Positions 9,256 through 13,381 of a DNA stretch of 64,000 bases are shown here, one piece after another. The stretch comes from Nitrospinae bacterium CG11_big_fil_rev_8_21_14_0_20_45_15 (lineage in GTDB: Bacteria > Nitrospinota > Nitrospinia > Nitrospinales > VA-1). Every line of letters starts with the position of its first letter. The first letter of the stretch is position 1. The notes under the pieces were generated by a model. The model saw only the letters and a list, made by a program, of their open reading frames with translations. It did not search any database and was not told where the DNA came from. The DNA lies in the NCBI GenBank assembly GCA_002787235.1, contig PCWG01000004.1, positions 62,001 to 126,000 on the forward strand. Direction: 5' to 3'. The position numbers and the translations under genes are program-made.

Positions 9256-9753
9256 ATGATTACTAAGGTTCACGGCGATATCCTTTTAAGCGAAGCGCAT
9301 GCAATTGCTCACGGCATTGCACCCCACGATCACTTTAACCAAGGCCTGGCACTGGCTTTGCGAGAGCGTTATCCTGCCATGGCGCAGGATTTCCGCCATT
9401 ACTGTTTTCAGCAAAATCCAAAATCCGGACATGCCTGGCTTTGGGCTGGCCCAGAGAAGGTCGTTATCAATTTAATGACACAGGAACCTGCCCTCGCCAA
9501 TCAGGTTCACCCCGGGAAAGCGAGCCTGAAAAATATCAATCATGCTCTTAAGGAATTATGCGGCATCATTGAGAAGGAAGAAATCAAATCAATCGCGTTG
9601 CCAAGACTGGCTACCGGAGTCGGGGGGCTGGAGTGGAGCGATGTCGAGCCGTTGATTGAAAAATATCTGGGCGACCTGAAAATCCCCGTAATTGTATACA
9701 ATTCTTATGGCAAAGATGAAAAAGCTATCGAGAAAAACCTCAAAACAGCCTAA
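9256..9753 (+). CDS. Macro-domain protein (ADP-ribose binding/hydrolase-like)
   Basis: A 165-residue protein made of a single macro domain. The N-terminal VHGDILLSEAHAIAHGIAP corresponds to the first strand and the Asp that contacts the adenine. ALPRLATGVGGLEW near residues 114-127 matches the loop that wraps the ADP-ribose diphosphate. Members such as TARG1 and the bacterial YmdB/DarG group remove or read ADP-ribose on proteins or DNA, or deacetylate ADP-ribose derivatives. No DarT-like toxin is next to it, so a toxin-antitoxin role is not supported. It overlaps the start of the following cytochrome gene by up to 38 bases in another frame. Confidence 0.8.
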   Translation: MITKVHGDILLSEAHAIAHGIAPHDHFNQGLALALRERYPAMAQDFRHYCFQQNPKSGHAWLWAGPEKVVINLMTQEPALANQVHPGKASLKNINHALKELCGIIEKEEIKSIALPRLATGVGGLEWSDVEPLIEKYLGDLKIPVIVYNSYGKDEKAIEKNLKTA

Positions 9754-10111
9754 AGGCGCGGTATCAAGTATCAAGCGTGTATGCTTTCTGCTTCTTTTAT
9801 CGGCTATCTGGTTCGCACTCCCACAGTTGAGTTCTGCGAGAGGACCCGATGTCTTGCGATATGGAGACACAGGGGATTATCCAGCAGTCCTGTTCAGTCA
9901 CGACGCTCATATGGCTACAGGACTCAACTGCGGAGATTGTCATTACAGTATTTTTCAGAAAAGAAAAGGTGATGCCGATAGCGATGGAGAAATGACGATG
10001 AAAACCCTCGATGAGGGGAAATACTGCGGAGAATGCCACAACAACGATAACGTCTTTTCGACCAAGAAGAACTGCGACCGCTGTCATGTCAAAAAAATCA
10101 TCGGCAAATAA
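9716..10111 (+). CDS. Triheme c7-type periplasmic cytochrome
   Basis: A 131-residue precursor. A basic N-region and a hydrophobic segment (about 23-37) form a signal peptide or anchor. Three CXXCH haem sites follow: CGDCH at 72-76, CGECH at 104-108 and CDRCH at 120-124. An upstream LFSHDAHM segment supplies His ligands, as in class III c7 cytochromes of the PpcA/nanowire-triheme type, which carry electrons through the periplasm. Start uncertain: ATG at 9707 or 9716, both inside the end of the macro-domain gene. The overlap suggests that gene calling here needs care, or that the two are coupled. Confidence 0.85.
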   Translation: MKKLSRKTSKQPKGAVSSIKRVCFLLLLSAIWFALPQLSSARGPDVLRYGDTGDYPAVLFSHDAHMATGLNCGDCHYSIFQKRKGDADSDGEMTMKTLDEGKYCGECHNNDNVFSTKKNCDRCHVKKIIGK

Positions 10112-10313: not shown

Positions 10314-11069
10314 TTAGTAACCAATTATAAGCTTTTCCAAATTATTGATCTGAAAAGAATGCTCCGTTTCTACTTGGATAACAATAGTCTGTTTGTTTCC
10401 TACAAACATAGGGTGATTACATGGAACTGGATTCTTTAAGATAGCTAGATTTGGATTGCTAAGGTGTATATGAGCAATTAAACCGTCCATATAAAATCGA
10501 TAAACCTCCCTTTTATTTGTGCCTACCTGTACCTGTTGCTTAATTGAGGCAAAATTATGTGTAGGTCCTTTTATAGGTAGTTGAATGAGAATAACCGGGA
10601 AGAAACTTAATTGATCATCTACTTCTCTAATAATGATTTTCCTTAGTCTTTCTATATCATTCAGAGTTAATTCAATTTCTTTAAATTCCGGTAGAGACGA
10701 TACTGCCGCTCTCCACAAAAGGCTTAAGAAAAATATTCTAATTTTTGTTGGGTCATTAAACTCCACAATTGCCAATTCAGAAATTGACTTAGTAGCAGGC
10801 TGTCTTATTTTATCACTTGACCAAAGCAACCCTAAAGCTCGTAGCTCTTCTATCGCATGGGAATCTATATCGGATAAATAATCTTCGCCTTCTCTTATAA
10901 CAATTGTTTTGTCATACCAGCTATCAGCTCTCTTGATATAGCGTTTGTCAATTGAAAGTGCAGGTTGAATAAATTTGTTTCCTAGCTTTGTTGGCCTTGT
11001 TAAAGCCCTTGGAATAATATGTGATTTTACAAATTTTCCTTGCCTACCAGTTAACTTGCATATCCCCAC
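10314..11069 (-). CDS. Orphan protein with HNH-like N-terminal motif
   Basis: A 251-residue protein starting at a GTG with a strong AAGGAG site (11077-11082) 7 bases upstream. The N-terminus, CKLTGRQGKFVKSHIIPRAL, resembles the C-x2-C/SHIIP start of a group of HNH-related proteins seen in phage and accessory islands. Only one Cys of the first pair is present, so zinc binding is in doubt. The rest has no motif I can name. The gene is visibly more AT-rich than its neighbours and borders repeat copy C, both consistent with horizontal gain. A nuclease or defence role is possible but unproven. Confidence 0.55.
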   Translation of the reverse strand: MGICKLTGRQGKFVKSHIIPRALTRPTKLGNKFIQPALSIDKRYIKRADSWYDKTIVIREGEDYLSDIDSHAIEELRALGLLWSSDKIRQPATKSISELAIVEFNDPTKIRIFFLSLLWRAAVSSLPEFKEIELTLNDIERLRKIIIREVDDQLSFFPVILIQLPIKGPTHNFASIKQQVQVGTNKREVYRFYMDGLIAHIHLSNPNLAILKNPVPCNHPMFVGNKQTIVIQVETEHSFQINNLEKLIIGY

Positions 11070-11332: not shown

Positions 11333-12343
11333 TTAGGGTGTCTTGGCACACCGGAAGCCAAAGCTGTTGTTGCGGACTTCTGGAGTGAAGAAGCTTCGGT
11401 TGAAGGTGGGTGCGCTCAATCCGCAACCGTAGGACAGGCAGTCGAACCAGGAGCCGCCTTTTAACAGCCGTTTGTCTTCGCCGTATTCGGGACGCATAAC
11501 GGTGTTGCCGGGGTGCGGCAGATAAAAGCTGTCCACCCATTCCCAGACATTTCCAGACATGTCGTACAATCCGTATGGGCTTCTCCCGTTGGGATAAGTT
11601 CCTACCGGCTGGGTCCCTGTGGAATAGTTGTAGGGGTGATTGGAGCGGTCCAGCTTCCACTCGTTGCCCCAGGGATAGATCAGCCCGTCTTCGCCGCGTG
11701 CGGCTTTTTCCCATTCGATTTCAGTGGGAAGTCGTTTCCCCGCCCATTTGCAATAATCATCGGCATCGAACCAGTTGACGTAGACGACCGGGTGATTTTC
11801 CTTGCCTTTGGGGATTTCGCCCTTGGGCCAGTGGTACGGTTTTTCTCTGGAAGTCGCTTCCGCAAAAATTTTATATTTGCTGTTGGTGATCTCATAAAGA
11901 TCAATATAGAATGCGTCGGTTCGCGCGATGTGTTCGGGGCCTTCGTCGTCCCATCTCTCGTTGGAGCCCATGATGAATTCTCCTGCGGGGATCAACACCA
12001 TATCTTCCAAACCGGGAGCGGTGTTCGATTTTTTCGAGGCCGGGGCTTTTTCTGCTTTGAGTTTGGGATGAGGGGTCTTATCTTTGACAGCGATTCTTTG
12101 CAGTGAAAGGTTTCCGAAGGGGCTGGACTGGGTTCGCTTGGGAATGCCGACGTGACAGGCCTTGCATTGCGGGCGTTCGGTGCGGTCGCGTTTTGCCTGT
12201 ATGATTTTTTCGGGATCGTGGCAGGTGCTCTGGCATTTTTTGCCGTTGTTTTCAGTGAGCTGGTGTTCGTAGGCCAGCGTGACTCTTGCGTTCAGCAAGC
12301 ACAGTGTCAGAACCAACAATTTGAGAAGATTGAAAGAGTGCAA
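11333..12343 (-). CDS. FGE-sulfatase (SUMF1) domain protein with N-terminal haem-binding motifs
   Basis: A 336-residue exported protein. The signal peptide is residues 1-24 (ending LAYEH). Next come two candidate haem c motifs: the rare CX3CH form CQSTCH at 37-42 and a canonical CKACH at 60-64. From about residue 110 (GLEDMVLIPAGEFIMGS) to the end (NSFGFRCAKTP) is a complete formylglycine-generating-enzyme fold with LPTEIEWEKAARG and DMSGNVWEWV. The pair Cys302 and Cys307, in GGSWFDCLSYGC, has the C-x4-C spacing of the copper-binding active-site pair of true FGE, which most SUMF1-domain proteins lack. The TTG start lacks a clear ribosome site. An oxidoreductase role in the periplasm fits; no sulfatase is near. 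Confidence 0.8.
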   Translation of the reverse strand: MHSFNLLKLLVLTLCLLNARVTLAYEHQLTENNGKKCQSTCHDPEKIIQAKRDRTERPQCKACHVGIPKRTQSSPFGNLSLQRIAVKDKTPHPKLKAEKAPASKKSNTAPGLEDMVLIPAGEFIMGSNERWDDEGPEHIARTDAFYIDLYEITNSKYKIFAEATSREKPYHWPKGEIPKGKENHPVVYVNWFDADDYCKWAGKRLPTEIEWEKAARGEDGLIYPWGNEWKLDRSNHPYNYSTGTQPVGTYPNGRSPYGLYDMSGNVWEWVDSFYLPHPGNTVMRPEYGEDKRLLKGGSWFDCLSYGCGLSAPTFNRSFFTPEVRNNSFGFRCAKTP

Positions 12344-12538
12344 GGGAAACTCGATGAAAAGTGTTTGATGTGTTTTTTAATGTGTGCTCAGTCCGTGCCT
12401 AAGGTTAACGGATGGGGCATATTGAGTCAAAGCCAAATATCATCTCGCGCGATTCCATCTGTACTCTGATTTTACAAACGAAACGGTACCGGATTCAATC
12501 CGCAAAAGCTGTGACCGAAGATAAGGAATGAACTTTTT

Positions 12539-13381
12539 ATGATGGAATGGAGATTGATCTGCGACGGCCCTATGGCGGGTCCGGTGAATATGGCAACCGA
12601 TCGTGCGCTTTTGCAGGCCTGCAACGAAGGGATTTCCGGTCCCACGTTTCGGATTTACGGCTGGGCGGGAACGGCGGTCACTCTGGGTTATGCTCAGGAA
12701 GAAAAAGGCCAGATCAACAGCGAGCTTTGTCAAAGACTGAATATTCCCATCAGCCGCCGTCCGACCGGGGGGCGCGCGATGGCGCATCAAAACGAATTGA
12801 CCTACAGTCTGACCGTACCCATCCCGCACGAGCAATTCCCCTCCAGTCTCAAAGGAGCCTATGCGGTGGTGGCGACGGCGGTCGAGAAATCCCTGCAACT
12901 TCTGGGAGTCAAAAACACCCCTCATGCCCCGCGCTCGACAAAGAAGACAGAGGGTAAGGAAAAATTTCGCTCTCCGGCCTGTTTCGCACATTTGAACGGA
13001 CATGAAGTTGCGGTGCAGGGAAAAAAACTGACAGGCGGGGCGCAACGGCGCCTGAAAGGGGCTTTTTTACAGCAAGGATCGATTCTGCTGGATTGTGATC
13101 GGGAATTTACGAATTCGTTGTTTGAGTTCCCCGATCTCCAGACGAGAGAAAGAAATCTTGAGATTTTGAGGGAGCAAACCATCAGCCTGCGTGAATTGTT
13201 AGGAATCGAAATTCCTTTTGAGCTGGCCGCCGGAGTATTCAAAAAAGGTTTCTCGGAGACCTTTCCCGGTCGCTGGCAGGAAAAAGGTTTGAGCGCAAGA
13301 GAGATCAGCTTGCGCGATGCTCTTGTAGAGGATAAAGGACCGGGAATCTCGCGCAGAGTCCTGGATGACGCCATAAAATAA
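12539..13381 (+). CDS. Lipoate-protein ligase/octanoyltransferase family protein
   Basis: A 280-residue member of the BPL/LplA/LipB superfamily, which attaches lipoate or octanoate to lysines of the H-protein and 2-oxoacid dehydrogenase E2 subunits. Visible motifs: the RRPTGGRAMAHQNELTYSL segment (acyl-AMP or substrate binding), and HLNGHEVAVQGKKLTGGAQ with the conserved Lys162/163. The length and lack of a long C-terminal accessory domain resemble LipM-type octanoyltransferases, so either activity is possible. A single Cys precedes the HLNGHE segment (SPACFAH), as in LipM. AAGGA lies about 10 bases before the ATG-ATG start. Confidence 0.82.
   Translation: MMEWRLICDGPMAGPVNMATDRALLQACNEGISGPTFRIYGWAGTAVTLGYAQEEKGQINSELCQRLNIPISRRPTGGRAMAHQNELTYSLTVPIPHEQFPSSLKGAYAVVATAVEKSLQLLGVKNTPHAPRSTKKTEGKEKFRSPACFAHLNGHEVAVQGKKLTGGAQRRLKGAFLQQGSILLDCDREFTNSLFEFPDLQTRERNLEILREQTISLRELLGIEIPFELAAGVFKKGFSETFPGRWQEKGLSAREISLRDALVEDKGPGISRRVLDDAIK

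Follow-up and report, generated by a model that had tools for sequence, protein, structure and literature searches.

Can a single exported protein carry both c-type haems and the cysteine chemistry of FGE, the copper-dependent enzyme that generates formylglycine? The question is raised by one gene in a 64,000-nucleotide stretch of a Nitrospinae genome (contig PCWG01000004.1, positions 62,001 to 126,000; here, the window). An initial annotation made from the letters alone had noticed CX3CH and CXXCH motifs fused to an FGE fold and proposed a haem-linked copper oxidase. We examined the gene, its relatives, its fold, and its neighbors to see which parts of that proposal hold.

A haem-motif segment joined to an FGE fold

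The position first assigned to the gene is correct, and we add its strand, minus, which had been left out (Table 1). The reading frame runs from a TTG called as the start, although the start codon is uncertain, to a stop at 11333, and the plus-strand frame over the same interval is interrupted by stops. Both haem motifs and the C-x4-C at Cys302 and Cys307 exist as originally numbered, and their conservation in orthologues and in the wider family described below shows that they are not chance occurrences. Cys198 and Cys332 correspond to Cys218 and Cys365, known as disulfide partners in human FGE, and we take them to be paired likewise; Cys332 is conserved in FGE-like paralogues too.

Table 1. 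Features of the haem-FGE gene and of neighboring genes in the window
Feature	Position	Strand	Basis
Trihaem c7-type cytochrome	9692-10111		TIGR04257, 1.2e-20
251-aa ORF	10314-11069	-	No Pfam or NCBIfam match
Haem-FGE fusion gene	11333..12343	-	336-aa ORF; PF03781 (profile search, E = 7e-58); orthologues
Cys332 codon; aligns with Cys365 of human FGE, half of a structural disulfide	11348..11350	-	Alignment
FGE-sulfatase (SUMF1-like) domain, residues 113-334	11342..12007	-	PF03781; AlphaFold2; Foldseek
Loop S298-W-F-D-C302-L-S-Y305-G-C307-G-L-S310-A-P-T-F-N-R316	11396..11452	-	Invariant pattern, 115 distinct members
Cys307 codon	11423..11425	-	Conservation in orthologues/family
Cys302 codon	11438..11440	-	Conservation in orthologues/family
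Cys198 codon; aligns with Cys218 of human FGE, half of a structural disulfide	11750..11752	-	Alignment
Haem motif 2, CKACH (CXXCH), residues 60-64	12152..12166	-	Translation; orthologue conservation
Haem motif 1, CQSTCH (CX3CH), residues 37-42	12218..12235	-	Translation; orthologue conservation
Signal-peptide-like N-terminus, residues 1-24 (MHSFNLLKLLVLTLCLLNARVTLA)	12272..12343	-	Judged by eye from translation
Lipoyl protein ligase A/B family gene, divergent neighbor	12539..13381	+	LplA-B_cat, 4.5e-26

The FGE fold is backed by both the PF03781 profile match and structure prediction. An AlphaFold2 model built from 146 sequences reached a mean pLDDT of 85.6 (only 56 with 22 sequences). The FGE domain was modelled mostly at 93-99, falling to 80-87 around residues 296-315, while the haem segment (47-76) and the linker (31-56) were both poorly modelled. 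A Foldseek search with this model returned SUMF2 (pFGE; PDB 1y4j) as the best match (5e-23), followed by CalU17 and copper-bound FGE among the top matches. SUMF2 is also the top PDB match by sequence, but it has neither the Cys pair nor the haem segment. The resemblance to CalU17, an FGE-like protein of the calicheamicin pathway (PDB 6vqp), is at the level of the fold (rmsd, 2.6), and CalU17 is not haem-fused.

The protein has no curated family name, since all five NCBIfam equivalogs of the superfamily score far below cut-off (bits/cut-off: EgtB, 119.8/360; OvoA, 48.6/400; SenA, 105.8/420; PvdO, 60/500; GldK, 87.3/350). PvdO and the EgtB/OvoA/SenA oxidases have the FGE-type domain in common with it, yet these families lack a haem segment, and the window protein lacks the DinB-type iron domain. 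A search of a viral structure library gave matches only to remote FGE/tail-fibre folds, and the C-terminal 88 residues searched alone had no solved relative at E < 1.

A conserved family in Nitrospinota and beyond

Among 77 genomes of the phylum Nitrospinota, whose members are major marine nitrite oxidisers, 63 encode a full orthologue. Within the order of the window's genome (families f1 to f4), the count is 61 of 64, the three negatives being at most 79% complete. Orthologues were readily separated from paralogues: in the phylum search, the weakest orthologue still had an E-value of 1e-96, against 3e-57 for the best of the remaining matches. Such near-universal presence in the order suggests that the protein probably has a fundamental, as yet unnamed redox role in the periplasm of these bacteria. 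An alignment of 50 orthologues (46-71% identity) has both haem motifs, Cys302, and Cys307 intact in 49 or 50 of them, and likewise Cys198 and Cys332; the exceptions are a truncated sequence and, in one orthologue, a shift to CX2CH.

The window's genome (3.37 Mb) holds 23 FGE-fold genes, and only the window gene encodes either CXXCH-type motifs or a C-terminal loop with a Cys pair. This expansion of FGE-fold genes is unexplained. Several of them are clustered (C26, C32, C17, and C37), and the other 22 lack a catalytic-type Cys pair.

The initial annotation had suggested looking for the fused architecture in other genomes. A scan of GTDB genome contigs together with genome searches found the same fusion in Gammaproteobacteria, Nitrospirota, and 'Deltaproteobacteria'. 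At E <= 1e-100, positives made up 28 of 369 genomes of the gammaproteobacterial class, 22 of 296 in the phylum of a Nitrospirota hit, and 10 of 297 in the phylum of a 'Deltaproteobacteria' hit. The resulting set comprises 123 sequences, 115 of them distinct, and all 115 carry [DN]CxxYxCGxS, the pattern by which membership was itself first chosen. In extra regions picked on score alone, the pattern was confirmed in every family member they contained. A search of plasmids yielded only ordinary FGE-like proteins, none with the Cys pair.

In a tree of 246 FGE-type domains, the family forms one clade (local support, 0.996), from which the Cys pair is missing only in two truncated orthologues. The annotation knew of no earlier description of a periplasmic haem-linked copper oxidase of this type, and in the open-access literature we found no account of the fused architecture. 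The haem-FGE fusion is thus a real, undescribed, and widely conserved family.

The haem segment

Two haem motifs are carried by 109 of the 115 distinct members, every one of which retains the His that follows each second Cys. The motifs are all-or-none across the family, vanishing together. The six members without the two motifs comprise four Nitrospirota proteins lacking any haem segment, a second copy, and a fragment at a contig end. Because the four Nitrospirota proteins keep the Cys pair, the haem and Cys-pair parts are separable.

The rare CX3CH form occurs in all 47 Nitrospinia members, with a motif spacing of 17 (15 in one), and all 62 two-motif members from outside Nitrospinia have CXXCH instead, with a spacing of mostly 15. 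Given this confinement, CX3CH is a lineage variant of the ordinary motif. One haem requires one motif only, so the distance between CX3CH and CXXCH, which the annotation had thought could speak against haem, is irrelevant as a refutation.

Profile searches of the segment gave cytochrome c3/c7 families as the best weak matches; PF14537 matched 6 of 12 members (best, 3e-4, under the cut-off), with the window protein unmatched. The CXXCH-x14-17-CXXCH spacing likewise resembles that of the mini multihaem domains of cytochromes c3/c7, but the family differs from these in having two haem motifs only, no conserved distal His, and the fusion to FGE. Among the 109 two-motif members, no distal haem ligand proved invariant, and 43 of them have no more than one additional His in the segment.

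The lack of an invariant distal ligand, the presence of just two short motifs, and the poorly modelled segment would suit a zinc or disulfide knuckle in place of bound haem. We regard such a knuckle as very unlikely: a His retained after each second Cys in every member with the segment, the joint disappearance of the motifs, and the cytochrome profiles as best matches all argue for haem, as does the window genome's own CcmH (PF03918, 4.5e-13), indicating cytochrome c maturation. Judging from these sequence features, the two motifs would each be sites of covalent haem attachment.

A cysteine pair offset from that of FGE

In FGE, Cu(I) is held by two thiolates, and the apo-enzyme makes a disulfide (PMC12123546). 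Activity depends importantly on Cys336, Cys341, Ser333, His337, and Tyr340, and a requirement for an exogenous reductant has been proposed (PMC4505483). The window protein shares with aerobic FGE/SUMF1 (PDB 1y1e, 6muj, and 6s07) the entire fold, the GGS Ser333, Tyr340, the structural Cys218/Cys365 pair, and a C-x4-C on the same loop.

Aligned to human FGE (KGGSWFDCLSYGCG versus KGGSYMCHRSYC), however, the cysteines do not superimpose. Without gaps, Ser298 corresponds to Ser333 and Tyr305 to Tyr340, Cys302 falls on His337, and Cys307 lies one residue past Cys341, an offset of +1 relative to Cys336/Cys341 that rests on anchoring the alignment at Ser333/Tyr340, as a profile alignment puts the gap elsewhere. 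His337 has no equivalent in this alignment, its position being occupied by Cys302. Compared with FGE the loop has two extra residues, and it matches in length the loop of the Cys-less SUMF2, to which it aligns ungapped.

A tree of the C-terminal half points in the same direction. It places the family among Cys-less FGE-like proteins, grouped at 0.945 with four FGE domains from neighboring genes, and places FGE nearest to SUMF2; with human FGE as its sole canonical reference, the tree is suggestive rather than strong. Since the nearest FGE-like relatives lack the cysteines and the pair is offset by one residue, Cys302/Cys307 was probably gained anew rather than retained from FGE. The initial statement that the fold "keeps" the copper Cys pair, in the place of the catalytic one, is therefore not supported in that form. 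The same offset, the absent His337, and the close relatives without the pair make copper in this protein a guess.

What, then, might the pair do? One possibility, somewhat unlikely but to be taken seriously, is that Cys302-Cys307 forms a family-specific structural disulfide in a redox-inert FGE-like (C-type-lectin-type) binding module, with the cytochrome hung on for docking or scaffolding. Cys pairs of exported proteins tend toward oxidation, the short C-x4-C spacing permits a disulfide, apo-FGE itself makes one (PMC12123546), and the C198-C332 cystine shows that the fold tolerates cystines; FGE-fold lipoproteins with related profiles, such as GldK/PorK, are structural. Yet the invariant Asp301, Tyr305, Gly308, Ser310, Asn315, and Arg316 around the pair resemble an active site more than a staple for the fold, and the 22 FGE-fold paralogues in the same genome manage without it.

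Alternatively, the protein could be a true haem-linked copper oxidase in which Cu(I) held by the two thiolates activates O2 exactly as in FGE and the haems add electrons, yielding formylglycine or some other oxidised thiol. The C-x4-C has the same spacing and sits on the same loop as in FGE, equivalents of Ser333 and Tyr340 are kept, copper-bound FGE and CalU17 are among the best Foldseek matches, and an exogenous reductant has been proposed for FGE (PMC4505483). We nevertheless consider this oxidase unlikely, given the one-residue offset, the absence of His337, a pair probably gained independently, and the lack of CxPxR in the four sulfatase-fold proteins of the genome.

Genes next to the haem-FGE gene

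In all 47 Nitrospinia loci, the haem-FGE gene stands head to head with an LplA-type lipoyl ligase gene; in the window the two are separated by a gap at 12344-12538. Two loci, L074 and L242, have a family member near glycine-cleavage genes.

Outside Nitrospinota, at least 32 of 47 loci have a second FGE-fold gene no more than two genes downstream in the same orientation; genes were called with a simple ORF picker, which makes this count a minimum. This second protein has neither Cys pair nor haem motifs, and it often bears a lipobox as well as a GG..GxGHY loop. Two lipoproteins whose FGE domains are similar are encoded elsewhere in the window's genome (G000:C4 and C37). Directly upstream in 10 of the 47 loci is a monohaem cytochrome c gene (PF00034, 4e-10). 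Six loci (L238, L239, L240, L241, L245, and L076) share a conserved set consisting of a SurA/PpiC isomerase, the monohaem cytochrome c, haem-FGE, and the FGE lipoprotein; several of them add a spermine-synthase-like membrane protein, a TPR protein, and a Pfam-less protein of ~650 aa that is possibly an outer-membrane barrel. Taken together, these genes resemble an envelope redox system.

We also looked for a larger fixed operon but did not find one: neither the trihaem c7 cytochrome nor the 251-aa ORF lies near any of 49 Nitrospinota orthologues. The trihaem gene is close to haem-FGE in the window's genome only. Its start is overlapped by a DarG-like macro domain at 9256-9753 (NF048014, 84 bits, under the cut-off), with the rest of DarG absent.

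A proposed periplasmic oxidoreductase

From its sequence and that of its relatives, we consider haem-FGE probably a redox protein. The specific reading that we tentatively prefer, held with somewhat less than even confidence, is a two-haem electron carrier joined to an FGE-fold periplasmic oxidoreductase based on thiols or Cu(I), with the FGE lipoprotein as its likely partner. The protein would be exported and work in two parts. Its N-terminal segment, with two covalent c-haems, would pass single electrons to or from a soluble cytochrome c, and its C-terminal domain would offer a substrate pocket lined by the invariant Asp-Cys-x-x-Tyr-x-Cys-Gly-x-Ser loop. By analogy with FGE, Cys302/Cys307 would most likely act as a dithiolate that is redox-active or binds Cu(I), and where FGE is proposed to need an outside reductant for turnover, the haems would take that electron-partner role. 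In most phyla a neighboring gene encodes the second FGE-fold lipoprotein, which is likely to be the partner or the membrane anchor.

Our analysis establishes the gene, its fold, its conservation, the single clade, and the gene pairing; export, haem attachment, the cysteine chemistry, copper, the path of electrons, the partner role, and the substrate are inferred. The fold, the conservation of haem motifs and loop, the weak cytochrome c3/c7 matches, CcmH, the upstream cytochrome c, and the downstream FGE-like gene all speak for an oxidoreductase. Against it stand the Cys offset, the lack of His337, the haem-less members, the lack of an invariant distal haem ligand, and the poorly modelled haem segment, and in the oxidising periplasm Cys302/Cys307 could simply be joined as a disulfide.

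A narrower claim, that the proteins form a widespread, undescribed class of periplasmic enzymes partnered by a second FGE-fold lipoprotein, with an FGE-type Cu(I)-thiolate centre that evolved again one residue from FGE's own and is connected to two c-haems, strikes us as quite improbable. If true, it would be the first copper oxidase of the FGE fold with a built-in electron supply. With haems on an FGE fold and a Cys pair that never changes across several phyla, the family allows a direct test of electron supply to this fold.

Sulfatase maturation was considered as a role in the window's genome and rejected, as none of its four PF00884 sulfatase-fold proteins has CxPxR.

A separate arrangement was seen at L074:8950-9969, where a two-haem segment is joined to an FGE domain of the GHY type rather than the Cys-pair type; the haem segment is thus swapped between FGE types.
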